From the NCBI RefSeq assembly GCF_002572525.1, contig NZ_PDBS01000001.1:3410001-3474000 (forward strand): a DNA stretch of 64,000 nucleotides. Direction: 5' to 3'. The notes beneath the pieces were generated by a model. The model saw nothing but the letters and a program-made list of their open reading frames with translations. It made no database searches and had not been told where the DNA came from. This stretch comes from Natrinema sp. CBA1119. Its GTDB lineage: Archaea; Halobacteriota; Halobacteria; Halobacteriales; Natrialbaceae. The position numbers were made by a program, and so were the translations under genes. Below, piece by piece: positions 45,760 to 62,994 of this stretch (its first letter is position 1; each line of letters begins with the position of its first letter).

Positions 45760-46687
45760 TTAATCACTCACCTTTGGTATAGAGAGTCGATCAAGAGCGG
45801 TATCAATCGCTGTTGTGAGTTCAGAAAGTGAATCAAAGAACTGGTTGCTTAGCGCTGATTAAAGTTGTCCCCAGCACTCTTCGACCGGATTGACCTCTGG
45901 CGAATACGCCGGCACTCTCACGAAGGAGAGGTCGTCACGGGCCGCCAGGTCCGTGACGGCCGACGCCCGAAAATACGGTGCTCCGTCCAGCACAATACTC
46001 AGATTATCTAAAAATTCGTTGCATACTACGAGAATGAAATGTTTCGCGTATTCGGCAGTCACGTACTCTTCGAATCGAGAGAAAAAGCGATCACCGTCTT
46101 CGGGAATCGCGCCCAACAGACACGTCCAATCGCGTTGGCCAGATAATTCAACAGCTGGCCACGTGCCGCGCGGAAACCACCCGGTACGCGGCTCGACCTG
46201 CACTGATTTCTTGGTTTGATCGATACGGACTACTGTGGCGTCCATCTCCCGCCGCTTTTTTGAGTTCCTCGCGGAACGTTTGCTGTTCGTCAGCATCAGA
46301 CTCGACGGCTGTACGGCGTGGTTTTTGATAACTCAATCCCGCTTTGTTGAACAACTGCCGACAGCTCGGGATTGAGTACTCGACATCGGACGTCTCCTCC
46401 AGATACTGCTGGACAAGCGCCGGCGTCCACGCCGGCGCGTCGATCCCAACTTCCGCAGGAGATTTGTGGACGGTTTCTTCGAACATCTTTTGATGATATT
46501 CTGAAGGATTTTGTTTTATCCCAGATAAGTGATCATCAGTCATGGCCTGTTCAAGCGACTCGTCGGTCTCAAGTCGCTTGAGCCAGCTATAGATTGTCCG
46601 TCGCTGAACGCCGTACCACTCGGCTAGTTCAGTTTGTGTAAGACCATTTTTGTACGCTATTGCCGCTAAGAGCCGTTGTGTCGACAT
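45760..46687 (-). pseudogene. IS630-type transposase, frameshifted and with a premature stop
   Basis: The first frame (from 46687, MSTQRLLAAIAYKNG) has the N-terminal HTH (LTQTELAEWYGVQRRTIYSWLKRL) and linker. At about 46250-46260 the frame shifts at a run of six A (minus strand AAAAAAG), and the DDE part continues in another frame: VRIDQTKKSVQ, LSIVLDGAPYFRA, YSPEVNPVEECWGQL. A TAA (45859-45861) then interrupts, but the same frame continues with a normal-looking tail (SALSNQFFDSLSELTTAIDTALDRLSIPK) to TAA at 45760-45762. AAAAAAG could be a programmed slip site; the nonsense codon still indicates decay. Confidence 0.85.
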
Positions 46688-46845: not shown

Positions 46846-47406
46846 ATGGCTGACCCGAAGGAATCCATCAACATCGAAAACGTGGTGGCGTCGACCGGCA
46901 TCGGGCAGGAGCTCGATCTCCAGAGTGTCGCAATGGACCTCGAGGGGGCCGACTACGACCCGGAACAGTTCCCCGGTCTCGTCTACCGCACCCAGAATCC
47001 CAAGTCCGCCGCACTGATCTTCCGTTCGGGAAAGATCGTCTGTACCGGCGCGAAAAGCACTGACGCCGTCCACGAGAGTCTCAATATCGTCTTCGACGAA
47101 CTCCGCGAACTCCAGATCCAGGTCGAAGCGGACCCCGAGATCATCGTCCAAAACATCGTCAGCAGCGCTGATCTCGGCCGGAACCTCAACCTGAACGCGA
47201 TCGCCATCGGGCTGGGCCTCGAGAACATCGAGTACGAACCGGAGCAATTCCCCGGACTCGTCTATCGCCTCGATGAGCCAAAAGTCGTCGCCCTCCTCTT
47301 TGGCTCCGGGAAACTGGTTATCACCGGCGGGAAGAAGGTGGAAGACGCCAGTCAGGCCGTCGATGTGATCGTTACCCGCCTCGAGGAGCTCGGCCTGCTC
47401 GAGTAA
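46846..47406 (+). CDS. tbp: TATA-binding protein (TBP)
   Basis: A 186-residue TBP with two direct-repeat halves. The first half reads INIENVVASTGIGQELDLQSVA...DPEQFPGLVYRTQNPKSAALIFRSGKIVCTGAKS, and the second IIVQNIVSSADLGRNLNLNAIAIGL...EPEQFPGLVYRLDEPKVVALLFGSGKLVITGGKK. It binds TATA boxes and recruits TFB and RNA polymerase. Haloarchaea often have several TBPs. This one lies among transposase remnants and tandem repeats. The sequence is intact and acidic, with no sign of decay. Confidence 0.97.
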   Translation: MADPKESINIENVVASTGIGQELDLQSVAMDLEGADYDPEQFPGLVYRTQNPKSAALIFRSGKIVCTGAKSTDAVHESLNIVFDELRELQIQVEADPEIIVQNIVSSADLGRNLNLNAIAIGLGLENIEYEPEQFPGLVYRLDEPKVVALLFGSGKLVITGGKKVEDASQAVDVIVTRLEELGLLE

Positions 47407-48316: not shown

Positions 48317-48418
48317 GTCGCAACCGATGCCGGTAGTCCGTAAAAATATGCCGCTGATCACCCGGGATGCTGTTCAGAGTAGAGTGTGAAGGAGTGAGGC
48401 GGTGGAATTCGTTGTGCT

Positions 48419-48980
48419 ATGCCAGAATTTGACCGCCTCGACGATCTAGTATCGGGATCGAGTTGGATTTTGTGGAGCGCGAGCAGACACCGCGCAAGCT
48501 CATGGAACGCAGTATCCAGCTCCAGTTGTGTGAATCGTCACTTATAGATACTATCTCTGTCTTAGAGTATTTCGGTGTCGAACGGGCGCGCTTGACAGTT
48601 CACAAGTGGGTCCAAAAGGCTGACGTACAGCCGACAGACGGTGCCCAGCCGGATCACATCGCGCTCGACGTGACCGTTTAATTTCGACGATCAGCGCTAC
48701 TGGCTGTACGCTGCTGTCGATCCCGAAACGAACAAATTTCCCCACACCAGGCTGTTTCCGACGCGGAGCGAGGGTGTTACCTCGATCTTTCTCTCTGAAC
48801 TCACCGAGAAACACGATGTCGATGACGCCGTGTTTCTCATCGATTCCGGACACTGACTGGAAGCTGCACGCAACCGACACGGCCTCCGATTTCGTCACGA
48901 GACACACGGAAATCGGAACGCCGCCGAACGTCTCTTTCAAGAAGCAAAACTGCAAACCTATCAGTTCAAAATTGCTTTAG
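48419..48980 (+). pseudogene. IS6-type transposase remnant
   Basis: The order of fragments matches a haloarchaeal IS6-family transposase: MPEFDRLDDL, then in another frame IELDFVEREQTPRKLMERSIQLQL, VLEYFGVERARLTVHKWVQKADVQ and PDHIALDVTV, a stop, then DQRYWLYAAVDPETNKFPHTRLFPT, TEKHDVDDAVFLIDSGH, another stop and RHGLRFRHETHGNRNAAERLFQEAK. At least two frameshifts and two in-frame stops are present, and the catalytic DETV is changed to DVTV. It cannot encode an active enzyme. Terminal repeats were not identified. Confidence 0.85.
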
Positions 48981-49261
48981 AAACGCCGAACCGAATACCA
49001 CCGAAACGTGGCTCCAGCGCGACGCGTACGTATGCAATCAACGAAATTGAACACGGCCGGTTCTCGAACCTGCGCTTCGGTACGACAGCCGAACGGAACT
49101 CGATCGGGATATCCGTTCCCGACAGATCCGTTCTCACTATCATCTCCAGCCCCCACTGGCGACCTGAATTCCATTCGGTTTCGTTCATCCGAATTCGCAT
49201 AATTAACCCAGTAGAGTGACAAACCGACGTTCTTATTTGTTTTGGGGGAGTATTAACTCCA

Positions 49262-49846
49262 ATGAGCGAGTATGGATGTAAAGTTTGTCGAGTATTAGAT
49301 GAATACGATATGGAGCGATACGAGGAACAATTACTCGAACAATGGCAAGCGGATTCGTCCCAGCGAAAGGGATATCGGAAACTTTCCAAGTGGTTTAATA
49401 CACTTATGCTGCGCCGCGAAATGGACCGTGCGGGGCTCTCGACTCTCGGAGACGAAGCCGAGTCGAAATACGAGCGATTGCAATCCGACGAGGCGATTGC
49501 AGCGGAGGTCGCGACAGAGTTAGCGAACACGGGCGTTCCGATCGAACAGTTACGGGACGATTTCGTCTCGTACGGCGTGATCCGGACACATCTGAAGGAG
49601 TGTCTGGAGTCCGATGTAGATCTCTCGAGCGGGGAGTGGGAACGGGACGCGATCGATATTTCACGGAATCACGCCGAAACGAAGATAACGGAGGCCGTTC
49701 GATCGTTACGGAATAAAGAACAGTTGACTGCCGGCGGTGACGTCACCGTTTCCGTTACCGTAGAACTGGAATGCGAGAACTGTCACGCTCGCGTCCCCGC
49801 TGACCGTTCGATTCGACGCGGATACGTCTGCCGCTGTAACAACTAA
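49262..49846 (+). CDS. RdfA-like protein (rod-determining factor family)
   Basis: A 194-residue protein matching the haloarchaeal RdfA pattern: YGCKVCRVLDEYDMERYEEQLLEQW, then KLSKWFNTLMLRREMDRAGLS, LANTGVPIEQLRDDFVSYGVIRTHLKECL and a C-terminal zinc site with cysteines 171, 174, 190 and 192 (CENC...CRC). As I recall, RdfA in Haloferax volcanii is needed for rod-shaped cells and lies beside an SMC-like gene. Here too an SMC-like gene follows after 2 bp. The extra N-terminal CKVC is a variation. This lies in an IS-rich patch, so it may be an accessory paralogue with another role. Confidence 0.8.
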   Translation: MSEYGCKVCRVLDEYDMERYEEQLLEQWQADSSQRKGYRKLSKWFNTLMLRREMDRAGLSTLGDEAESKYERLQSDEAIAAEVATELANTGVPIEQLRDDFVSYGVIRTHLKECLESDVDLSSGEWERDAIDISRNHAETKITEAVRSLRNKEQLTAGGDVTVSVTVELECENCHARVPADRSIRRGYVCRCNN

Positions 49847-49848
49847 CT

Positions 49849-51696
49849 ATGGCTGAAAAAACACTTCACCTCGAACTAGAGAATATCGGTGGTATCAAAC
49901 GAAAAGAGATAACCCTCACAGGAGGACCGACGTTCATCCAGGGGCCGAACGCCGCGAACAAGAGTTCGCTACTCAGGGGACTCCTCTTCGCGCTCGGATC
50001 CAGTACGGTTCCGATCCGAAGCGGAGCGGACGAGGCTCGCGCAGTGCTGTCATCAGACGAGACGCAAATCGAGAGGGTTGCCCGCCGAACCGATAACGGT
50101 GTCGAAACGAGCGGCGAAGCGTGGATCGAAGACCCAGATGACGTCACTCTCCTCGAGCGATTCGCGGCGTTACTGGAGACGAATTCGCTTCGAAGTGCCG
50201 TGGCGCGCAACGAAGACGTCGAGCCGCTACTGAAAGGGCCGATGAATATCGAGTCACTTGAGGAGGAGCGGGCGACGAAAATGCGCCGGAAACGAGAGCT
50301 CACTACGGAAATCGAGTCTGTCGGTGATGTCGACGACAAGCTCGAGGACCGACAGCGCGAACTCGAAACCAAACGGGAACGACTCGATGAACTCGAGTCG
50401 AAACTCGAGGAATTGTACGACGAGCAAGACGATACCGACAGCGACGACGGTCTTCAGGAGCTACGCGAGAAGCGGGCCGATCTGCGCTCCGATGAGGCCG
50501 AGAGCGAGGCCCAGATCGAACAACTCGAAACCGCAATCGACCGACTCGAGGACCGGAAACACGAGATCAGCGCGGAACTCGAGGAGGCGCGCGAAGCCGT
50601 TGAAGAGACCGATATTGAATCGCTCAAACAGAAGCGAAAATCGCTTCGGTCTGAACTCGACGATGTAACGAAGCGTCTCGACGTTCTGCAGTCGGTCTTG
50701 ACCGCGAATCGGGAAATGCTCAACTCCGAGTTCACGGGCGCTCTCGGTCGCGATAGCGGGTTGATGGGAGAGGAAGTGACCTGCTGGACCTGTGGTCAAT
50801 CAGCCTCGATCGACGAGTTAGATGAGACGGTTGAAGAACTGACGACGCTGGTCAAAGCGGACAAACGGCGCAAACGGGAACACGAACCAAAGATTGATGA
50901 AATATCGGAACAGATAGAGCAGGTTCGACGATCGGAGACAAAGATTCAGGAACTCGAGGCAGAAAAGCAGGACATCGAGCAGAAGCTGGCGAGCCGTCGC
51001 GACTCTCTCGACGAACGCCAAGAGCAGTGTCAGAACGTTCGTGAACGTCTTACTGAACTGGACGAAGAAATCGCTGACCGAAACGCCGACCAGCGCTCCG
51101 AGCAGTCGGAACTCACTGGCGAAATCGAGGAAACGCGCGTCGAGATCCGGACGATCCGCCGAGACATCGAGCGGCTGGAGGAGGCGTGTGAATCCCTCCG
51201 CGAAACGCGTGCCGACGTGGAGCGCAAACGTGACGAGGTGGCACAATTGTCCGAGGAGATCACGACGTTAACGGATCAGATCGAAAATCTCGAGAGCGAA
51301 CTTCGGGCTGTGTTCAACGAGACAATGGATGAACTGTTGGATGCTCTCGAGTTCGAACGGATCGAACGTGTCTGGCTCGACGGCGAGTTCGAGCTGGTAA
51401 TCGCTCGGGAAGTCGACGGTCGAACCCAGTCGGATTCGATCGAACACCTTGCCGAAAGTGAGCGCGAGATGATCGGACTCGTCCTCGCGCTCGCCGGATT
51501 CGTCACGTACGACGTTGACGACGTGACGCCGGTACTCGCCCTCGACTCACTGGGTGCGTTCGACGCTGAACGCACTCGCCGACTTGTCGATTACTTCGCC
51601 AACAAAACCGACTTCCTGGTTGCAACGGTTCATCCGGAGTCCACTGTCGACACCGCATTCGACACGATACTGTTTGAACCGGCCGTTCAGAACTGA
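49849..51696 (+). CDS. Archaea-specific SMC/Rad50-related ATPase with zinc hook and variant Walker motifs
   Basis: A 615-residue SMC-like protein. The N-terminal ATPase half has Walker A GPNAANKSS (32-40), lacking the usual GKS/T glycine. Coiled coils run about 140-290 and 325-470 around a Rad50-type zinc hook CWTC (312-315). The C-terminal half has the signature-like LAESEREMIGLVLALAG (about 535) and Walker B LALDS, where the catalytic Glu after Asp566 is Ser567. Such proteins dimerise through the hook and clamp DNA, but ATP hydrolysis here is doubtful. It is coupled to the RdfA-like gene, indicating a joint function. Confidence 0.85.
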   Translation: MAEKTLHLELENIGGIKRKEITLTGGPTFIQGPNAANKSSLLRGLLFALGSSTVPIRSGADEARAVLSSDETQIERVARRTDNGVETSGEAWIEDPDDVTLLERFAALLETNSLRSAVARNEDVEPLLKGPMNIESLEEERATKMRRKRELTTEIESVGDVDDKLEDRQRELETKRERLDELESKLEELYDEQDDTDSDDGLQELREKRADLRSDEAESEAQIEQLETAIDRLEDRKHEISAELEEAREAVEETDIESLKQKRKSLRSELDDVTKRLDVLQSVLTANREMLNSEFTGALGRDSGLMGEEVTCWTCGQSASIDELDETVEELTTLVKADKRRKREHEPKIDEISEQIEQVRRSETKIQELEAEKQDIEQKLASRRDSLDERQEQCQNVRERLTELDEEIADRNADQRSEQSELTGEIEETRVEIRTIRRDIERLEEACESLRETRADVERKRDEVAQLSEEITTLTDQIENLESELRAVFNETMDELLDALEFERIERVWLDGEFELVIAREVDGRTQSDSIEHLAESEREMIGLVLALAGFVTYDVDDVTPVLALDSLGAFDAERTRRLVDYFANKTDFLVATVHPESTVDTAFDTILFEPAVQN

Positions 51697-52755
51697 TCCT
51701 GTGCTGTAATCCGATTCACTGATCAGTCGAGTGAAACAGGAGTGGTGGCTCGAACGATAGATTCGCGAATCTTGTATTTTCAGCGAGTGATTAATAAACT
51801 AAAAACAGTTTCTGATGTTTACGGCTTGCTCCGTCTCGATAAAGTGGTCGATCTCGTTCACCTGATCGATCGCCTGTAATCGGCGGAGTAAGTCGTCGAT
51901 CTCCGCGTTGGATTTCGCAGTGGAGATTCCGTACAAATCGACGGTTTTGATCCCCTCGGCAACGAACTAGAAGTCCATATTCGACATGACGTCGAAGCTG
52001 TTTTGCTTCGAATTCGTATCGCTAGCAGTCGTGACCGTAACGAGGACGATTTCCCAACTGTTGCGCTCCGACCGCGATAAGAAAAACTCGTCATGGGCCC
52101 TATTGAATTCACGGAACTGGCGATACCATGCAAGCGCTCGAACGGTAGACTGTCCGAGCCCTTGATCACCGAGTTCACGGTTTCACAGACCGAGCGCTGG
52201 TTGTAGAGTTTATCCTCGATTCGCACAGTGTGCGTGTGATCGTAAGGTATGAAGACGCGAAATGCAAGACAGCATGCTTCCAGACCGGTAACTCCGTTGC
52301 CGGTAGGATGGCTGATCTGAATCAGCATTGCATCAGTAACTTTTCGTGCGATCGAGACAGCCTGTTTAACGAAGCGGAAGAGAAAGCGTTGTGCAAAAGA
52401 CTCTCTTCCGCTTCTATTCAATCCGTATAGCGACGTACCCCGACGTTGTCGGTGAGTTCAATAGAACCGCATCAAACAACACCGTGGTTTGGGAATTCGC
52501 ATCCGTAACAGGTGTGGCGAGTCGATGATAACGAACTGAGTGTGTTATTGAATGGGAAACGGTCGCTTACGAAATGACCAGATACTGGGTATAAAACAGT
52601 TCGAGGTAGTGCTCGATAGTCTCGATGTGTCAACTCTCGTCTTCCTATAGCAGCTGGCGATGTCGAACGACCGCACGAATACGGGTACGATTGGGGACGG
52701 CGACCGATCTACCGCCGTCAACTGACGTGTGCGATGTCGTCGACGCGTATACGGC
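51697..52755. other. 1.06-kb region of broken reading frames
   Basis: Between the SMC-like gene and the phosphotransferase there is no intact gene. The middle (51799-52330) holds minus-strand pseudogene fragments described separately. The remaining 52331-52755 contains no protein-like frame or recognised structure beyond moderately AT-rich sequence. Confidence 0.5.
51799..52330 (-). pseudogene. Fused relics: transposase fragment and an unidentified regulator-like tail
   Basis: Read on the minus strand, IEDKLYNQRSVCETVNSVI followed, after a frameshift, by GQSTVRALAWYRQFREF resembles the C-terminal part of an IS5-type haloarchaeal transposase. It runs on into HDEFFLSRSERNSWEIVLV...VMSNMDF, an in-frame TAG, and then FVAEGIKTVDLYGISTAKSNAEIDDLLRRLQAIDQVNEIDHFIETEQ, ending at TAG 51799-51801. 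The last part recalls an Lrp/AsnC-type ligand domain. The whole is decayed; the join may be a recombination scar. The identity of the second part is uncertain. Confidence 0.5.
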
Positions 52756-54392: not shown

Positions 54393-55937
54393 ATGGAACG
54401 AGAAGACTTCTACGGGAGCGGCACCGAAAACGTCGGAGCACTTCACGACATCACGGTCGAGGAATACGGGGATACGCCGGCAATTACGATGGGCGACCGC
54501 ACCATGACACACGCGGAATTGCGCGATCGTTCGGCGGCGTTTGCGGGCGGGCTCGCGGAGCGGGGGATCGAGCCGGACGACAGAGTACTGGTATACGTCC
54601 CTAACTGTCCGGAGTTCGTCATCACGCTGTTCGGCGCACTGAAGGCGGGGGCGCCGTTTTCGCCTGCGAACCCGCAGTACCAGTCACGCGAGTTGGCTCA
54701 CCAGCTCACGGACTCCGGCGCGGAGGCGATCGTCACCCACGAGTCCCTTCGAGACACCGTCGCAGACACGCTCGAGGAGACCGGGCTCGATCCCCTCGTG
54801 ATTACGGTCGGTGGTGGACGCGAGGACGACGTTCCGTTTGAAGCGGTCGACGGCGAACCACTCTGTGTCGAACGGGACACCGACGATGTCGCTACCCAGT
54901 TATACACGAGCGGGACGACTGGCAAACCGAAGGGCGTTCTCTCGACGCACGGCAACCTACGCGCGCAGGCGTTTGCCGGCCTCGATACGGGCGTCGACGA
55001 CCCCGATGACCAGCGGACTCTGGTATTCCTACCGCTGTATCACACGACGGGAGTCTATCACTGCACCTGGCAACCGCTGTTGAAAGGCGGCCACATGTTC
55101 CTTCGAAACCCCGACAATTGGGATCCCGCCGACGCGATGGCCGCGATGGAAGCGCACGAAATAACGTCGTTCAACGGGGTCACCGCGATGTACGTCGATA
55201 TGGTGAATCACGAGTCGTTCGGTGAGTACGACCTCTCGAGCCTGGAATCGGTCGGCGAAGGCGGGGCCAAGATGTCCGTGACCGTCCAGGAGGAGTTCGA
55301 ATCGGTTGCCGGGGTCAATATGTACGAGGGGTATGGTCTCACCGAGACCAGCGGTGCGACGCATGCCGGCCACGAATCCACGTTCGGGCCGCGACTGGGG
55401 TCCATCGGGCAACCCTTCCGAATGACCGACTGCAAAATCGTCGACGACGAGGGCAACGAGGTCAAGACCGGCGAAGAGGGCGAGTTGCTGATTCGGGGCC
55501 CACACGTGATGAAAGCGTATCACAACCTGCCCGAAAAGACCGAGCAGGCCTTCGACGAACTGGGATATTTCCGGACCGGTGATCTGGCTCGACGGGACGA
55601 GGATAACTACTACGAAATCGTCGATCGGGCCAAGGACGTTGTCGTTACGTCGGGGTACAATATCTACCCGAGCGAGGTGGAAGACCTGCTACGTGAACAC
55701 GAGGCAGTGACGGACGTTGCCGTGGTCGGCGTGCCGGACGAGCGACGAAACGAAGTACCCAAAGCGTTCGTCGTAACAGCAGCGGACATCGTTCCCGGGA
55801 CCGACGTGACCGAAGACAAGATCAAAGAGTTCGCCCTCGATAACCTCGCGGCGTACAAGCACCCCAGGGAAGTCGAGTTTATCGACGAACTGCCACGGAC
55901 TGCAAGCGGAAAGGTCCGGAAAATAGAGCTCGAATAG
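54393..55937 (+). CDS. AMP-forming acyl-CoA synthetase (fatty acid-CoA ligase)
   Basis: A 514-residue ANL-superfamily enzyme that activates a carboxylic acid to its CoA thioester via an acyl-AMP. The P-loop reads LYTSGTTGKPKGVLSTHGN, the A5 region MYEGYGLTETSG, the A7 hinge YFRTGDLARRDEDNYYEIVDRAKDVVVTSGYNIYP, and the A10 catalytic Lys is in LPRTASGKVRKIE. Length and motifs are complete. Surrounding dehydrogenase and hydratase genes suggest it feeds beta-oxidation. The chain-length preference cannot be told. Confidence 0.95.
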   Translation: MEREDFYGSGTENVGALHDITVEEYGDTPAITMGDRTMTHAELRDRSAAFAGGLAERGIEPDDRVLVYVPNCPEFVITLFGALKAGAPFSPANPQYQSRELAHQLTDSGAEAIVTHESLRDTVADTLEETGLDPLVITVGGGREDDVPFEAVDGEPLCVERDTDDVATQLYTSGTTGKPKGVLSTHGNLRAQAFAGLDTGVDDPDDQRTLVFLPLYHTTGVYHCTWQPLLKGGHMFLRNPDNWDPADAMAAMEAHEITSFNGVTAMYVDMVNHESFGEYDLSSLESVGEGGAKMSVTVQEEFESVAGVNMYEGYGLTETSGATHAGHESTFGPRLGSIGQPFRMTDCKIVDDEGNEVKTGEEGELLIRGPHVMKAYHNLPEKTEQAFDELGYFRTGDLARRDEDNYYEIVDRAKDVVVTSGYNIYPSEVEDLLREHEAVTDVAVVGVPDERRNEVPKAFVVTAADIVPGTDVTEDKIKEFALDNLAAYKHPREVEFIDELPRTASGKVRKIELE

Positions 55938-56170
55938 CGACGATTCGTTCGGTCGGATTTCGGCACGAAGCGGTCACTGTAACGGCCGTCGACCGGCCCT
56001 CGAGGTTGTACGCGGTTTCCCCCTTCCGCTTTTGAAACACTTCGACAGGAGGTGCGTACGGCGTAACAGTGATGGTGCTACTGTCGCGTTCATGTGTGGC
56101 TTTCATTCCACGGGTATACGATACCGACTCGTGTACAACCTCCCAAACGACGTTGACGAGGTTCCCGTCC

Positions 56171-56965
56171 TTACTGCCCTTCGAACTCGGGCGATCGATT
56201 GTTCAGGAACGCCTGTACGCCTTCCTCGTGATCGTCGGTTTCGAAGATAATCCCCTGGGCGACCGCCTCGTCGATCATCGCCTGGTCGAGCGACTTGTTG
56301 CTCCCCTCGTCGATGAGACGCTTTGCGTGCTTCAATGCGACCGTCGGGCCCGACGCGATCGAGTCGATGATTTCGTCGGCTTTCTCGTCGAACTCCGCCG
56401 CGGGAAACACGTGATTGAATAGACCGAGGTCTGCTGCTTCTTCTGCGCCGACTATCCGGCCGGTGAAGACGAGTTCCTTGGCGACGTTCTCGCCGACGAG
56501 TCGCGGTAAGCGATACGACGTTCCCGTATCGACCCCGAGGCCGACCTGGCGGAAGACGAAGCCGATCGCCGCACGGTCGCTCGCGATCTGTATGTCACAC
56601 AGTATCGCCATGTTTCCGCCCGCTCCGACGGCTGGCCCGTCGACTTTCGCGATCGTCGGGAGCGAAAACTCGCCCAGTTGTCGCATCACGTCGTTTGTCG
56701 ACTCCAGTAGTCCGTCGACGCGGTCGTCGATCGGGACGTCGTTCTCTATCGCTTCGACCATGCTACTGATGTCGCCGCCCGCGGAGAAGGCTTCGCCCGC
56801 TCCCTCGATGACGAGACACCGCGCATCGCTTCGTTCCACCTCCTCGAGGGCTCCTCGTAATCCGTTCGCGAGTTCTTCCGATAGTGCGTTTCTCCGGTCG
56901 GGATCGTTAAGCGTCGCAGTCGCGACGCCGTCTTCGATACGAAGCTTGACTATGTCCTCGCTCAT
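56171..56965 (-). CDS. Enoyl-CoA hydratase/isomerase family protein
   Basis: A 264-residue crotonase-fold protein. Signatures: DGVATATLNDPDRRNALSEEL, GAGEAFSAGGDISSM (oxyanion hole), and IAKVDGPAVGAGGNMAILCDIQIASDRAAIGFVFRQVGLGVDTG, with Glu/Asp positions typical of hydratases being less certain (Asp in the second site). It most likely hydrates trans-2-enoyl-CoA. The start at 56965 (MSEDIVKL) is chosen. It diverges from the acyl-CoA dehydrogenase pair, sharing a short promoter region. Confidence 0.9.
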   Translation of the reverse strand: MSEDIVKLRIEDGVATATLNDPDRRNALSEELANGLRGALEEVERSDARCLVIEGAGEAFSAGGDISSMVEAIENDVPIDDRVDGLLESTNDVMRQLGEFSLPTIAKVDGPAVGAGGNMAILCDIQIASDRAAIGFVFRQVGLGVDTGTSYRLPRLVGENVAKELVFTGRIVGAEEAADLGLFNHVFPAAEFDEKADEIIDSIASGPTVALKHAKRLIDEGSNKSLDQAMIDEAVAQGIIFETDDHEEGVQAFLNNRSPEFEGQ

Positions 56966-57108
56966 CGCGGCTGCATGTTCCTCGTCAACAGTTGTAATAG
57001 TTTCTATGACGGAGGATGTGGGTATCAATATCACGTGTGTCCCTGGCATGGAATAATTTATATGATCCGACGCCTTCTACACGAGAAGGAGGTCAATCGA
57101 CGGAAATC

Positions 57109-58314
57109 ATGGACTTCAGTTACACTGACGCCCAGGAATCGTTCCGAGACGAACTACGGGTATGGTTAGAGGAGAATTTACCGGACGGATGGCTCGACGG
57201 CGAGCGTGAGCTCCCGTCGGACGACGACGAACGGCTTGCCTTCCTGAGAGACTGGCAACGGACGCTGGCGGACGGCGACTGGGCGGGCATTCACTGGCCC
57301 GAAGCGTACGGCGGTCGCGGGGCATCGCTAGTGGAGCAAACGATTTATCGGGAGGAAATGGCGCGTGTCAACGCACCGCCGCAAGTCAACGTTATCGGCA
57401 TCAACCTCATCGGTCCGACGCTGATCGAAGCCGGAACGGAAGAACAGAAAAGCCGATTCGTGCCGAATATCCTCAGCGGTGAGGAGATCTGGTGTCAGGG
57501 GTACTCCGAGCCCGAAGCCGGCTCCGACGTGGCGAGCCTGACGACTCGTGCGGAACGGAACGGCGACGAATGGGTCATCAACGGCCAGAAAATCTGGACG
57601 AGTTATGCGCATAACGCCGACTGGTGTCTCCTGGTAACCCGAACCGACGCCTCGGGCGAAAAACACGAGGGGCTGACTGTCCTCCTCGTCGACATGGACC
57701 AGGAGGGGGTGGAAACCGACCCCATTCACCAGGCGAACGACGATCGAAGTTTCAACCAAGTGTATTTCAACGATGCAACCACCACCAGCGACTTGGTGCT
57801 CGGCGAGGTCGATGAGGGATGGGACATCGTCATGACGCTCTCGGCGTACGAACACGCCATGACTTCGATCTACACGATCGAACAGCGATACCTCGACCTG
57901 CTCGAGTATTGCAAAACCGAGACGCGCGGCGGGACGCCGTTGATCGAGAAACCGGAGATACGCCAACAGCTGGCCGACTTCGATGCGCGGATTCAGGCCG
58001 CGAAGGTGAGCCACTATCGTAACGTGAGCAAGCAGATCGAAACGGGTCGACCCGGCCCCGAAGGGTCGATGGACCTCGTCGTTAGCGACGAACTCAGAAT
58101 CGATCTTCTGAACTTCGCCGTCGACGTGCAGGGGCCTGCCACCTCGTTGTGGGAGAACGGTGACGCCGCCTTCGACGAGACGACCGGCTACCTTCGTTCG
58201 TACGGGTCGTGGATTGCAGCCGGAACCGGCGACATCCAGCGAAACATCATCGGTGAGCGAGTGCTCGGGCTCCCGAAAGACAAAAAGAGCAAAACGAGCC
58301 ACAGGAGTGAGTGA
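57109..58314 (+). CDS. Acyl-CoA dehydrogenase, catalytic-type subunit of a coupled pair
   Basis: A 401-residue flavoenzyme that forms trans-2-enoyl-CoA. Domain order is N-terminal helical (FSYTDAQESFRDEL), beta (QGYSEPEAGSDVASL, FAD binding) and C-terminal helical. It ends AAGTGDIQRNIIGERVLGLP, where the usual EGT glutamate is Ala. A catalytic Glu is instead plausible at Glu248 in SAYEHAM, matching the base position of actinobacterial heteromeric FadE alpha-subunits. AAGGAGGTC at 57086-57094 is an unusually good Shine-Dalgarno for this genome. The next dehydrogenase gene starts 2 bp downstream, so both are co-translated. Confidence 0.92.
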   Translation: MDFSYTDAQESFRDELRVWLEENLPDGWLDGERELPSDDDERLAFLRDWQRTLADGDWAGIHWPEAYGGRGASLVEQTIYREEMARVNAPPQVNVIGINLIGPTLIEAGTEEQKSRFVPNILSGEEIWCQGYSEPEAGSDVASLTTRAERNGDEWVINGQKIWTSYAHNADWCLLVTRTDASGEKHEGLTVLLVDMDQEGVETDPIHQANDDRSFNQVYFNDATTTSDLVLGEVDEGWDIVMTLSAYEHAMTSIYTIEQRYLDLLEYCKTETRGGTPLIEKPEIRQQLADFDARIQAAKVSHYRNVSKQIETGRPGPEGSMDLVVSDELRIDLLNFAVDVQGPATSLWENGDAAFDETTGYLRSYGSWIAAGTGDIQRNIIGERVLGLPKDKKSKTSHRSE

Positions 58315-58316
58315 CT

Positions 58317-59471
58317 ATGGATGCGAGATTGACTGAGGAACACCAACGAGTACAGGAAACCGCACGCGATTTCATCGAATCGGAAGGCGGCATGGAACTC
58401 GCCAGGCGACAGCTGAACGGCGAGGATGTCGTCGACCGCCTGTGGGACGAACTCGCGGAACTCGATTACACTGCGATCACGGTCCCACTCGAGCACGGCG
58501 GGTTCGGAGAAGGTATGGTGTACCTTTCGGCGCTGCTCGAAGCCGCGGGGCGGTACGCGCTTCCCGGACCGCTTCCGGAGACGGCCGCGTTCGCGGTCCC
58601 GCTTATTTCCGATCTTGGGAACGAAGAACAGAAATCAGCCTATTTGCCCGCGATCGCCGACGGGAACTGCAAGGTAAGCGTCGCGGTCTACGACGACGAA
58701 ACGGAATCGCTCCCCGAGAGCATCCAACTTCGCGCGGCCCCGGTTGAGACGAACGACGGAACCGGCTACCGACTCGACGGAACGAAAACGCTCGTTCCAT
58801 ACGGCGGCGACGCCGACACGGTAATCGTCGCGGCCAGAACCCGCGACAGCCGGGGATACGACGGAATTTCGTTGTTCCTCGTCGATACCGCCCACGACGC
58901 CGTTGACGCCAGGCAGTTAGACAGCCTCGACTGGGCACGGCCGATGTACGAGCTGACGTTCGATAACCTCACGGTCGGTCCCGATGCCCTACTCGGCCCG
59001 CTGCACGGCGGCGGCGGCCCCCTCGTCGACGCGGTCGATAGATACTCGGTCGCGGCGATAGCGATGCTCACGGGTGCCGCCGATCGCGCGGTCGAACTCT
59101 CTTCGGAATACGGGAACGAACGGGAACAGTACGGGCAACCGATCGGTATGTTCCAGGCCGTCAAGCATCGGGCGGCGGACATGTGGATCGACATGCAGAG
59201 CGCCCGATCGCTGGTCTACTACGCTTCGTGGGCCCTCGATACCGACGAACCCGATGCCGGCCGAGCCGTTGCGGCGACAAAATCGTACGCGGCCGACCGC
59301 CTCCACCGGGTGTTCGCCGACGATATGAAAAACCACGGCGGAATGGGCTTTACGTGGGATCACGATGCACACATTTACCTCAAACAGGCCAAGAGCTGGC
59401 GGAACTTCCTTGGCTCACCCGAGGCGTACCGCGATCGACTCATCGAGTCGCGACTTGCCGAGTCGGAGTAG
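58317..59471 (+). CDS. Acyl-CoA dehydrogenase-like partner subunit
   Basis: A 384-residue acyl-CoA dehydrogenase homologue beginning MDARLTEEHQRVQETARDFIES. It has the FAD-region WARPMYELTFDNLTVG and C-terminal GMGFTWDHDAHIYLKQAKSWRNFLGSPEAYRDRLI, the pattern of FadE27/FadE29-type beta-subunits, but I find no catalytic Glu at either known position. Its ATG is 2 bp after the stop of the preceding dehydrogenase. The pair probably forms a heterotetramer as known for cholesterol-catabolic enzymes, with only one subunit supplying the base. Confidence 0.9.
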   Translation: MDARLTEEHQRVQETARDFIESEGGMELARRQLNGEDVVDRLWDELAELDYTAITVPLEHGGFGEGMVYLSALLEAAGRYALPGPLPETAAFAVPLISDLGNEEQKSAYLPAIADGNCKVSVAVYDDETESLPESIQLRAAPVETNDGTGYRLDGTKTLVPYGGDADTVIVAARTRDSRGYDGISLFLVDTAHDAVDARQLDSLDWARPMYELTFDNLTVGPDALLGPLHGGGGPLVDAVDRYSVAAIAMLTGAADRAVELSSEYGNEREQYGQPIGMFQAVKHRAADMWIDMQSARSLVYYASWALDTDEPDAGRAVAATKSYAADRLHRVFADDMKNHGGMGFTWDHDAHIYLKQAKSWRNFLGSPEAYRDRLIESRLAESE

Positions 59472-59838
59472 ACCGACTCCGAAGCGCAACCAGCGGACGG
59501 TATCCGTAATCAGTCCTTTTTGTTCGATCAGGTAGCCACCGTGTACAGCTGATCGCTATGATGTGTTTCGGAACGACCCCTGTGTGTTTCCCGCTTTTAC
59601 GCCTGTGCTCGGCGTCCTGACTGGGCCGGATCTTGGAGTACTGTTTGTCGGTGGTACCGAGCCGTCTCAGGGAATCGGCCGATTTTATAGGTAGTGCGGG
59701 GGATACGAGGAAGCGTGACCCCAAGACAGTTGCCGTGTATGGATCCTACGATCGCCGGTGGCCAGTTAACGCGGCGGACGATCCGTTCGCCTCCAGTACC
59801 ACTCATCTTTATGTGATTGTGTGGTGTCAACTCACAAC
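59472..59838. other. Intergenic region with a possible half MITE
   Basis: A 367-bp gap before the next dehydrogenase. GTAGCCAC...TGATCG at about 59532-59553 resembles one arm of the palindromic family but has no mate. The motif actcatctttatgtga (about 59801-59816) is a TATA-type element 25-35 bp before the downstream start. No gene was recognised. Confidence 0.45.
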
Positions 59839-61041
59839 ATGGATTTCAGTGAACCCGAGGAAGCGACGCAACTCAAGGACGAACTCTCGACGTTCATCGA
59901 AGACGAAATCGAGCCGCTCGAGGAAGAGCACGCACGGTTTCTCGGTCCTGACGCGGAACGACATATCTTCGACGATTCGTTCGAGCAGGTTCCCGAGTAT
60001 CTCGAGTTGAAGGAAACGATCCGGAAGCGGTCGGCCGAAGCCGGTTTCTGGGGAATGAACATGCCGGAGGAAGTCGGTGGACGGGGGATCGACACGCTTA
60101 CCGACGCGATCATCGCCGAGTTTCTCGAGAACCGTCCCCCGGGTCTGCACACGTACGCCGTTCGGGGCGCCGGCGGCGGCCCGACGCCGATCCTGCTGGC
60201 CTGCGACGAACGACAGCGTGACCGGTATCTCGATCCCCTGATGGCCGGCGAGAAAACGACGTGTTTCGCGCTCACGGAGCCAAACCACGGAAGCGATCCG
60301 AACCTGCTCGAAACGACCGCGGAGACGGACGGTGACGAGTGGGTCATCAACGGACGGAAGTCGTGGATCAGCAACGGCCCGTACGCCGATTTCGCCATGG
60401 TCTTTGCACGGACGAGCGGTCAGCCCGGCCGGATCGACGGGATTTCGTGTTTCCTCGTCGACGCCGATACGCCGGGGTTCGAGGTTGGCGACATTCACCG
60501 ACCGATGGGGCACGCATGGGTCGCTCCGTCGGAACTCGAGTTCGACGACTGCCGGGTCGGCGAGGATGCGCTCCTCGGTGAGGAGGGGAAGGGGTTCTAC
60601 CAAGCGATGGACTGGATCGGTAACGCGCGGTTGGGCGTCGCCGCCGGGTGTGTCGGCTCGGCCCAATTCCTCATCGAGAAGGCCGTCGACTATGCCGAAG
60701 AGCGTGAGACGTTCGGCGAGCCCTTGATCGACCGGCAGGGGATTTCGTTTCCGCTAGCGGAGGTTGCGGCCGACATCGAGCGAACGCGGCAACTCTATCG
60801 CTATGCGGCGTGGAAGGGCGATACCGGCCGCGATGCACGCAAGGAGACCGCGATGGCGAAACTCTCGGCGGCGAACCTCGAGAACGACGCTGCAGACGTC
60901 TCGATGCAAGTCCATGGCGGGAAGGGCTATTCGCGGCGTGAGCCCATCGAGGAGCGATATCGGTCCTCTCGCGGGAAACGACTTACCGAAGGCACCGACG
61001 AAATGCAAAAGCGAACCATCGTCCGAGAGCTTCGGGACTAA
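59839..61041 (+). CDS. Acyl-CoA dehydrogenase
   Basis: A 400-residue homomeric-type acyl-CoA dehydrogenase. The start is the ATG at 59839 (MDFSEPEEATQLKDEL); the six upstream in-frame residues are not needed. FAD-binding CFALTEPNHGSDP and the Rossmann-like middle are present. The C-terminal RGKRLTEGTDEMQKRT carries the EGT glutamate that acts as catalytic base in MCAD-type enzymes. RYAAWKGDTGRDARKETAMAKL is the typical helix before it. Substrate chain length is unknown. Confidence 0.94.
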   Translation: MDFSEPEEATQLKDELSTFIEDEIEPLEEEHARFLGPDAERHIFDDSFEQVPEYLELKETIRKRSAEAGFWGMNMPEEVGGRGIDTLTDAIIAEFLENRPPGLHTYAVRGAGGGPTPILLACDERQRDRYLDPLMAGEKTTCFALTEPNHGSDPNLLETTAETDGDEWVINGRKSWISNGPYADFAMVFARTSGQPGRIDGISCFLVDADTPGFEVGDIHRPMGHAWVAPSELEFDDCRVGEDALLGEEGKGFYQAMDWIGNARLGVAAGCVGSAQFLIEKAVDYAEERETFGEPLIDRQGISFPLAEVAADIERTRQLYRYAAWKGDTGRDARKETAMAKLSAANLENDAADVSMQVHGGKGYSRREPIEERYRSSRGKRLTEGTDEMQKRTIVRELRD

Positions 61042-61416
61042 TCGCATTTCGTCCGTGTAACTGCCATGGACGGCCTATCGAAACCGGTCCGCGACGCGCG
61101 GTCATGGGGTGTACCTACTCAATCGAGCATCTGATGCAAACGAGCGAAACATCGTCCGTGATATCATCGGCCACCGCTTCACCGTGGCCGTCTCTATAGT
61201 AGCCACCGAAAGCCACGCCACGCCAGATCGCACGACTGCATTGCGATCAGTGTGTGAATCGTTTCAGTGGCTACTATCGCTATTCGTCGCGAGAACTGAC
61301 GAAATTATGATCGAAACGATCGTAACGCGATACGGCGTCGGTACGTGTACAGCTGACCACGAGTGGCGGCCGTCTGTGAACCCGCTGTAACGAACGGCTC
61401 GGCGGTTCGGAGCGGA
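61042..61416. other. Intergenic stretch with a MITE-like element
   Basis: This 375-bp gap between two convergent acyl-CoA genes contains MITE-like copy D and no gene that I can support. Short frames on both strands lack domains. Confidence 0.5.
61197..61276. mobile_element. MITE-like palindromic element, copy D
   Basis: An 80-bp element with GTAGCCACCGAAAGCC at the left and CGTTTCAGTGGCTAC at the right, flanked by TA on both sides. It sits between convergent genes, where insertion would be tolerated. Confidence 0.8.
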
Positions 61417-62994
61417 CTACGATTCCCACCCAACCATGACACCGTCTTCGTCGGCCAGGGAACTTTTCAAGACTTTTCCAGTCGGGTTTCGCGGGAGCGA
61501 TTTCAGGAAGATGAACTCTCTGGGCTTTTTGTAGTCAGCCAGGCGCTCACCGACGTAGTCCTGGAGTTCCTCCGCCGAGGGTTCCTCGTCATCGACGGGA
61601 ACGACCGCAGCTTTGATTCGTTCGCCCCATTTCTCGTCCGGCGCGCCGATGATAGCGACCTCGTCGATGGCCGGATGTTCGTGCAGTACCTCCTCGATCT
61701 CGGCCGGGTAGACGTTTTCGCCCCCCGAAATGATCATATTGTCGGATCGCCCGACGAACTCGATGAACCCCTCTTCGTCTTGCCGGATCAGATCGCCGGA
61801 AATGAAGAAGCCATCGTCGTCGAACGCCTCTTCGGTTCGTTCGGGCATCTGGTAGTAACCCGAAAACATCGTGGGCCCTCTATAGCAGGCCTGGCCGATT
61901 TCGCCCGGTCCGACCTCCTCGTGAGTGTCCGGATCGATGATTTTAAACATGACGTTCATGACCGGCCGACCGACGCTGTCGGGATGATCGAGGGCCTGAC
62001 TCGGCTGGAGCAGCGACACGACCGGTGACATCTCGGTCTGACCGAACGCCTCCTGTAACTCGGCATCGAACGCTTTCGAGATCGTCTGTTTGAGTTCCTT
62101 TCCGGACGGTGCAGCACCGATTCCGAACTCCTCGAACTCGGAGAGATCGTATTCCTCGAAGTCGTCGACGGCGAGCAGCGCACGGGCCATCATCGGCACG
62201 AAGAAGCCGTTCGTCACCGATTCGGACTCGAGGATCTCCATCACCCGGTCAGGATCGAACCCGTTCATGAGAACGGTCGTTGCTGAGGCGTAGTAGTTGT
62301 TGATGAACATGCCGAAGGCGGAGATGTGGAACAGCGGCGTCACGATGATTCCGCGGCCGTCGACACGGACATTTCGGCCTTCGAACGCCTTTTCCACGAT
62401 CCCGTTGACGGTCATCTGGATGATGTTGTCGTGTGTGAGAATACAGCCCTTCGGCTTGCCGGTCGTCCCCGACGTGTACATGAGCATCGCCTGGTCTGTG
62501 CGCGACGAAACGATCTCGACGGACTCGTCTGATGCCCCGTCTCGGAACTCGCCGTAGTCGGCCGCGTATGTGGGCGTCGAGTCCCCCGAGAAAAGCATCT
62601 CGTCTGGCATTACCTGATCGTCGTGGATCTGATCAACGATTTCAGTCGCTTGGTCGTCGAAGAGGAGGAGTTCGGCCCCGGAGTCCTCGAGGACGTACTT
62701 GACCTCATCCGCCTTGAATCGGTGGTTGACCGGCACGGGGATCGCACCGATTCGCATTGCGCCCAGGAACATCTCGAGCATCGGAATCGAGTTCGCGGTG
62801 TAGACGGCCACTTTGTCGTGGCGTTCGATACCGCGCTCACTGAGCGCGTTCCCGACCCGATCGATTCGCTCGTTGAAAGTGGCGTTCGTAACCGCCGTCC
62901 GTCCACCCTCCACTGGCGTCATCACTATCGCTTCTTTTTCGGGGAATTTGTACGCGTTACGCTCTGCCAGCCAGCTAATGGTCATCCCATTCAT
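61417..62994 (-). CDS. AMP-forming acyl-CoA synthetase
   Basis: A 525-residue ANL enzyme, second of the window. Motifs: LMYTSGTTGKPKGCILTHDN (P-loop), LQEAFGQTEMSPVVSL (A5), FFISGDLIRQDEEGFIEFVGRSDNMIISGGENVYP (A7 hinge) and SLPRNPTGKVLKSSL with the catalytic Lys. Fatty- or aryl-CoA formation is expected. It diverges from an acyl-CoA dehydrogenase gene, sharing a 159-bp promoter region. The start MNGMTISWLAERNAYKFP is typical of fatty-acyl ligases. Confidence 0.95.
   Translation of the reverse strand: MNGMTISWLAERNAYKFPEKEAIVMTPVEGGRTAVTNATFNERIDRVGNALSERGIERHDKVAVYTANSIPMLEMFLGAMRIGAIPVPVNHRFKADEVKYVLEDSGAELLLFDDQATEIVDQIHDDQVMPDEMLFSGDSTPTYAADYGEFRDGASDESVEIVSSRTDQAMLMYTSGTTGKPKGCILTHDNIIQMTVNGIVEKAFEGRNVRVDGRGIIVTPLFHISAFGMFINNYYASATTVLMNGFDPDRVMEILESESVTNGFFVPMMARALLAVDDFEEYDLSEFEEFGIGAAPSGKELKQTISKAFDAELQEAFGQTEMSPVVSLLQPSQALDHPDSVGRPVMNVMFKIIDPDTHEEVGPGEIGQACYRGPTMFSGYYQMPERTEEAFDDDGFFISGDLIRQDEEGFIEFVGRSDNMIISGGENVYPAEIEEVLHEHPAIDEVAIIGAPDEKWGERIKAAVVPVDDEEPSAEELQDYVGERLADYKKPREFIFLKSLPRNPTGKVLKSSLADEDGVMVGWES

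Follow-up and report, generated by a model that had tools for sequence, protein, structure and literature searches.

The rdfA-sph gene pair at 49262-51696 of the window, which is the whole 64-kb stretch of Natrinema sp. CBA1119 DNA analysed here, is read by us with a probability of about 0.5 as an accessory, mostly megaplasmid-borne RdfA-Sph subtype. Together with a dedicated regulator of the AsnC/Lrp type, it would make up a module of three genes, usually in acyl-CoA and sometimes in peptide/amino-acid catabolic clusters, and would act as a regulator-controlled, nutrient-tied, slowly hydrolysing clamp together with RdfA, with an output in cell shape or genome maintenance. The observed part of this reading is that the pair is intact, the clade is distinct, co-occurrence and linkage with asnC are near-obligate, and catabolic neighbours are found at most loci. 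Haloarchaeal RdfA-Sph pairs as such were already known; the distinct window-type clade and its AsnC link are new. In the open-licence papers searched, no report of the AsnC link or of the missing Walker B Glu was found.

The upstream gene (49262..49846, plus strand) encodes a 194-aa RdfA-family protein with a C-terminal CxxC...CxC arrangement. Its assignment is based on PF21811 (E 7e-52, 176.5 bits versus a gathering score of 27, residues 6-193 of 194), alignment, and dN/dS. The downstream gene (49849..51696, plus strand) encodes a 615-aa SMC-like Sph protein, which matches NF045487 (archaea-specific SMC-related proteins, ASRP) with 478.8 bits at a curated cut-off of 300; motif alignments, a motif census, and a coiled-coil model were added to this match. 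Both ORFs are intact and are separated by 2 bp, and the coupled RdfA/SMC-like pair described in the earlier note was thus recovered from ORF coordinates and profiles. In the genome of CBA1119, an rdfA-family gene precedes each of the four sph genes, and there is one extra RdfA-like match; the pair is thus, as had been supposed, an accessory RdfA/Sph paralogue. A conserved rdfA core promoter is located at 49220..49261 (plus strand; AAACCGACGTTCTTATTTG), with BRE/TATA-like sequence about 25-40 bp upstream of the ATG, and homology to close relatives begins at about 49222. In several relatives, a GAACN4GTTC-like element overlaps the rdfA BRE; it is not invariant.

We surveyed 391 Halobacteria genomes, one per species. 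A window-type Sph was present in 18 of them, at an identity of 42-100%; all other Sphs are sharply set apart, with at most ~37%, and the clade received a support of 100/100 in a maximum-likelihood tree of 46 proteins. The matching RdfA occurs in the same 18 genomes, in line with the co-occurrence expected earlier; the two genes are adjacent in 16 and about 42 kb apart in two. Ranked by the identity of their Sph or of their RdfA to the respective window protein, the genomes come in nearly the same order (rho 0.95 over the 18 genomes, whose ranks are not independent). Locus L047, from another family of the order, nests beside Natrialbaceae sequences in the Sph tree, which suggests transfer. Many members of the clade are on secondary replicons or megaplasmids, the replicon identity of draft contigs being uncertain, and several copies, including that of the window, are on main chromosomes. 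Pairwise dN/dS is ~0.10-0.17 for sph and ~0.06-0.11 for rdfA (rough values, as synonymous sites are near saturation); both genes evolve under purifying selection. Because the pair is kept in 18 genomes and its dN/dS is low, it is genuine and not a chance arrangement. On a plasmid of Natrinema sp. SYSU A 869 (L122, 9001-10853), the annotation divides sph into two pieces that overlap, a hint of a frameshift.

The Walker A motif of the window Sph is GPNAANKSS. In the alignment, Lys38 is kept and the Gly before it is replaced by Asn, which results in NK(S/T) and not GK(S/T). In Walker B (LALDS), D566 is followed by Ser567, and the catalytic Glu is missing also in a proper alignment; Ser567, as well as the Walker A reading of the earlier note, stood when a corrected alignment was examined for a normal Glu. 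The signature is LAESE (534-538), and H595 aligns with the H-loop position. The canonical SMC/Rad50 ATPase positions can hence be aligned and are degenerate. In a two-sequence AlphaFold model, the zinc hook C312WTC315, also proposed before, is placed between the coiled-coil arms 134-293 and 321-499, both of which are confident; the coiled coil is modelled well, and the head is without a confident model.

A motif census of 79 aligned Sph/ASRP proteins puts these residues into context. In all 44 common haloarchaeal Sphs, Walker A contains NR, and the Walker B Asp is followed by Ser. The window-type Sphs (n = 18) all have NK, with Ser at the position after the Asp in 17 and Thr in one, LAESE in 17 of 18, and a His aligned with the H-loop in 17 of 18. 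A third, short class of haloarchaeal Sphs (L100, L101, L113, L115-L117, and others) has GK, an LSEGE signature, and, in most cases, Gly in place of the Walker B Glu; the short haloarchaeal Sph L032 has Glu there. The five relatives from outside the haloarchaea carry GK and DE. As the departure is seen throughout the common haloarchaeal and window-type Sphs, whereas the non-haloarchaeal relatives have Glu, the atypical motifs are an old, common departure of haloarchaeal Sphs that is not special to the window pair. In Walker A, the window-type Sph is the less degenerate form. The earlier expectation of unusual ATP cycling was right in that the Glu is truly missing, which makes ordinary cycling doubtful, and has to be given up as a property of this pair in particular. 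From the SMC/ABC mechanism, the Sph ATPase probably hydrolyses slowly.

For RdfA, a profile search gave no relative of known structure, and AlphaFold modelled the protein alone with a pLDDT of 46. The four cysteines of the C-terminal zinc site suggested before (171/174/190/192) are all present in the window protein; within the family, only C171 is invariant in the alignment, which also contains two RdfA relatives without the C-terminal cysteines other than C171. The RdfA proteins of L051 (8270-8842) and L054 (10866-11444), which come from a single genus, lack most of the zinc cysteines through loss; hence, the site seems to be dispensable in some members. An N-terminal CKVC (residues 6 and 9, window 49277-49288) is conserved in the clade, and this cysteine pair is absent from three other RdfAs compared. 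It might provide another site for metal binding or redox chemistry.

The third gene of the proposed module encodes a regulator which, by its DNA-binding domain, is assigned to the AsnC/Lrp type; the Pfam AsnC-type helix-turn-helix was found in three of the linked regulators. In a genome-wide search at E 1e-25, this AsnC clade was present in 31 of 391 genomes: 18 of 18 pair-bearing genomes versus 13 of the 373 others (Fisher p 4e-23, uncorrected for relatedness). AsnC adjoins the pair in 15 of the 18 genomes and is on the same contig, ~14-25 kb away, in the other three. All eight plasmid records with a window-type Sph have RdfA and AsnC within ~1.7 kb. None of the 20 larger control loci has AsnC within ~9 kb of another Sph, and only two of 70 control Sph loci have it close by; in both, a window-like RdfA adjoins AsnC. 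In Halocatena, RdfA directly follows AsnC, with no Sph in the stretch shown. Among the matches listed, eight of the 13 non-pair AsnC-bearing genomes are without a window-like RdfA beside AsnC.

The arrangement differs between clades. In nine close relatives, asnC is convergent and directly downstream of the pair. It is upstream of rdfA on the same strand in L050, L052, L053, Haladaptatus, Halorussus, Halomarina PSR21, and N. gelatinilyticum; the gaps in asnC-rdfA-sph are 26 and 4 bp in Halorussus and 53 bp followed by a 4-bp overlap in Haladaptatus. In the two genomes with distant genes, asnC is upstream of sph, and rdfA is ~42 kb away. No shared operator was identified across the pair loci, and the window shows no enrichment of the Haloferax CsmR motif TATCAN4TGATA (9 sites versus 6 expected).

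In the window, the linked asnC is a pseudogene (51802..52086, minus strand), which corresponds to residues 64-156 of 161 with 69% identity and contains one internal TAG; the N-terminal DNA-binding half is gone. Homology to relatives stops at about 52095. Joined to the pseudogene is an IS/transposase-like sequence (52087..52421, minus strand), a likeness noted by eye, which is nearly single-copy in this genome. The earlier note had placed the pair between broken transposases in an IS-rich patch. Upstream this is correct, as a frameshifted, multi-copy IS6-like transposase remnant is found at 48380..49058 (plus strand; the best other copy is 88% identical). Downstream, a part of the supposed transposase is the pair's own regulator, because AsnC residues 64-156 can be recognised there, and the following 12 kb contain mostly acyl-CoA genes; the patch is therefore not chiefly made of transposon debris. 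Just upstream of the IS6-like remnant lies an extra gene for a TATA-binding protein (46846-47406; PF00352, E 3e-61), and a DDE_3 transposase fragment (45859-46293, minus strand) likewise points to IS activity next to the pair. An intact asnC (83%) is present ~78 kb from the window pair, at L131 and L134 (G000:C1, about 3532000-3540000). It is accompanied there by another part of the plasmid-type acyl-CoA cluster, with orthologues of its LLM oxidoreductase, its ligase, and, in broken form, its acyl-CoA dehydrogenase, but without rdfA-sph.

The acyl-CoA metabolism genes beside the pair (54393..62994) encode AMP-binding ligases, an enoyl-CoA hydratase, and three acyl-CoA dehydrogenases. Window-type pairs have more acyl-CoA genes in their surroundings than the other Sph pairs do (Mann-Whitney p 0.0017, with relatives that are not independent). 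Only the counts differ; presence or absence is not significant (14 of 18 versus 12 of 20, p 0.31). The four of 18 case loci without a nearby acyl-CoA gene are the relatives L052, L053, and L055 and plasmid L127. The Halorussus, G221, and Haladaptatus loci have peptide, racemase, or transporter genes instead. In the two split genomes, which belong to one genus (G086:C1:1532550-1576950 and G168:C43:600-45101), asnC-sph and rdfA are on the same strand, and acyl-CoA genes are spread across the ~42-kb stretch between sph and rdfA. A provirus was considered for this stretch and dropped, as acyl-CoA genes are found throughout.

Related systems have been studied in Haloferax volcanii, where RdfA (HVO_2174) and Sph3 (HVO_2175) are each required for rods and the deletions lose rods (PMC10869688), so the link to shape factors that the earlier note drew for Haloferax is published. 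In 24 genomes, 42 of 54 RdfA genes adjoin an SMC-like gene (PMC10869688). Another report describes Sph3 with a rod role in its abstract and as plate-promoting in its introduction (PMC13286277); we follow the primary deletion paper (PMC10869688). Deletion of sph2 versus sph3 moves Haloferax shape in opposite directions, and deletion of any of the four sph genes impairs intermolecular gene conversion (PMC11276520). CsmR, a factor of the Lrp/AsnC family with rdfA and sph3 in its regulon, controls shape in Haloferax and also regulates motility (PMC13286277). The ASRP family includes Sph and coalescin (ClsN), with a zinc hook in most members, and coalescin organises chromosome compartments (PMC9389158).

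On this basis, we propose that a metabolite is sensed by the AsnC protein, which would then control rdfA-sph. With Lys38 kept, Sph should bind ATP, and it is predicted from its sequence to dimerise through the zinc hook and the heads. For want of the Walker B Glu, hydrolysis would be slow, and Sph, partnered by RdfA, would for this reason serve as a clamp or scaffold that depends on ATP and lasts for a long time. Its output may resemble that of the studied paralogues, i.e., cell shape or motility and genome-copy maintenance, tied here to the nutrient state. In CBA1119, whose linked asnC is defunct, control in trans could come from the intact homologue at a distance of 78 kb. The control of rdfA/sph3 by CsmR in Haloferax counts as a precedent for AsnC control of window-type pairs. 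Several points count against the module: asnC may govern the catabolic genes only, with the pair carried along, and the window's own asnC is a pseudogene. The same holds for the four case loci without a nearby acyl-CoA gene, the eight AsnC-bearing genomes listed without a window-like RdfA beside AsnC, and the failure to identify a shared operator. A related form, which we consider a long shot, is that AsnC switches on the hydrolysis-poor SMC-like clamp with RdfA, which would organise or silence the catabolic island locally as coalescin does, or couple substrate use to cell shape. The clearest case of this form would be given by the two split genomes, with asnC-sph on one side of the ~42-kb acyl-CoA-rich stretch and rdfA on the other.

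Of the rival explanations, the one we take most seriously, while holding it to be unlikely, is that asnC is a local regulator of the catabolic cluster and that rdfA-sph is an independent plasmid pair travelling with it by chance. Acyl-CoA clusters are frequent on these plasmids, and some asnC relatives (Halomarina BCD28, Halalkalicoccus) are beside catabolic genes or transporters without rdfA-sph. However, asnC stays with rdfA even without a window-type Sph (Halocatena, Halolamina, and others), and the two keep company next to differing catabolic genes (peptide/racemase versus acyl-CoA). The order also varies by clade (convergent downstream or co-directional upstream), so the adjacency of asnC and the pair is not one frozen arrangement. 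With incidental catabolic neighbours, the pair might also be a replicon-specific factor for genome or plasmid maintenance (copy equalisation, segregation, or local chromosome architecture). Efficient gene conversion requires all four Haloferax sph genes (PMC11276520), coalescin of the same family organises chromosome compartments (PMC9389158), and many relatives are on secondary replicons, but this explanation leaves the tight asnC link unexplained, and several copies, also that of the window, are on main chromosomes. We thus regard it as rather improbable.

Decay of the pair in CBA1119, with the regulator lost and the pair heading for loss, would fit the asnC pseudogene and the number of unique changes in the window Sph, which is about double that of its nearest relative (63-65 versus 26-34). 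It is made very improbable by the two intact ORFs, the retained promoter core, dN/dS values of 0.06-0.17, and an rdfA rate that is not clearly raised. The defence or DNA-clamping module suggested in the earlier note is the explanation to which we give the least credence. SMC-like ATPases are found in defence systems, and IS-derived sequence adjoins the window copy, yet PADLOC gave no match for RdfA and only weak Sph matches, mainly in the coiled coil. Phage records contained no RdfA relative, viral contigs gave only generic SMC/Rad50-like matches, and the annotated neighbourhoods of the relatives are metabolic.

The window-type clade offers two handles on the Sph/RdfA mechanism, namely the linked Lrp/AsnC-type regulator, which echoes the recently described Lrp/AsnC control of rdfA/sph3 in Haloferax, and the lost Walker B Glu, whose family-wide absence opens the ATPase question to direct tests. 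Should the three-gene module be nutrient-controlled, archaeal cell shape or genome organisation would be tied to catabolism.

Compared with known systems, the window pair is closest in composition to RdfA-Sph3 of Haloferax volcanii, with the same two families in adjacent genes (PMC10869688). It differs in belonging to a distinct clade with ~30% identity to the common Sphs, in keeping the Walker A Lys, and in having its own linked AsnC and catabolic neighbourhood. With the ASRP proteins Sph and coalescin (ClsN), the window Sph shares an NF045487 score over the cut-off, the zinc hook, and the head-coil-hook layout (PMC9389158). The window and other haloarchaeal Sphs are without the Gly before the Walker A Lys position and without the Walker B Glu, whereas the non-haloarchaeal ASRPs examined have GK and DE. 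CsmR is likewise an Lrp/AsnC-type factor with rdfA-sph genes in its regulon (PMC13286277), a likeness by family class; the window-type asnC, in contrast, is physically linked to rdfA-sph and catabolic genes. Like Rad50/SbcC, the window Sph has a CxxC zinc hook and, by sequence profile, an ABC-type head, but it lacks the Walker B Glu, has LAESE and not an LSGGQ-like signature, comprises 615 aa, and has RdfA as its genetic partner.
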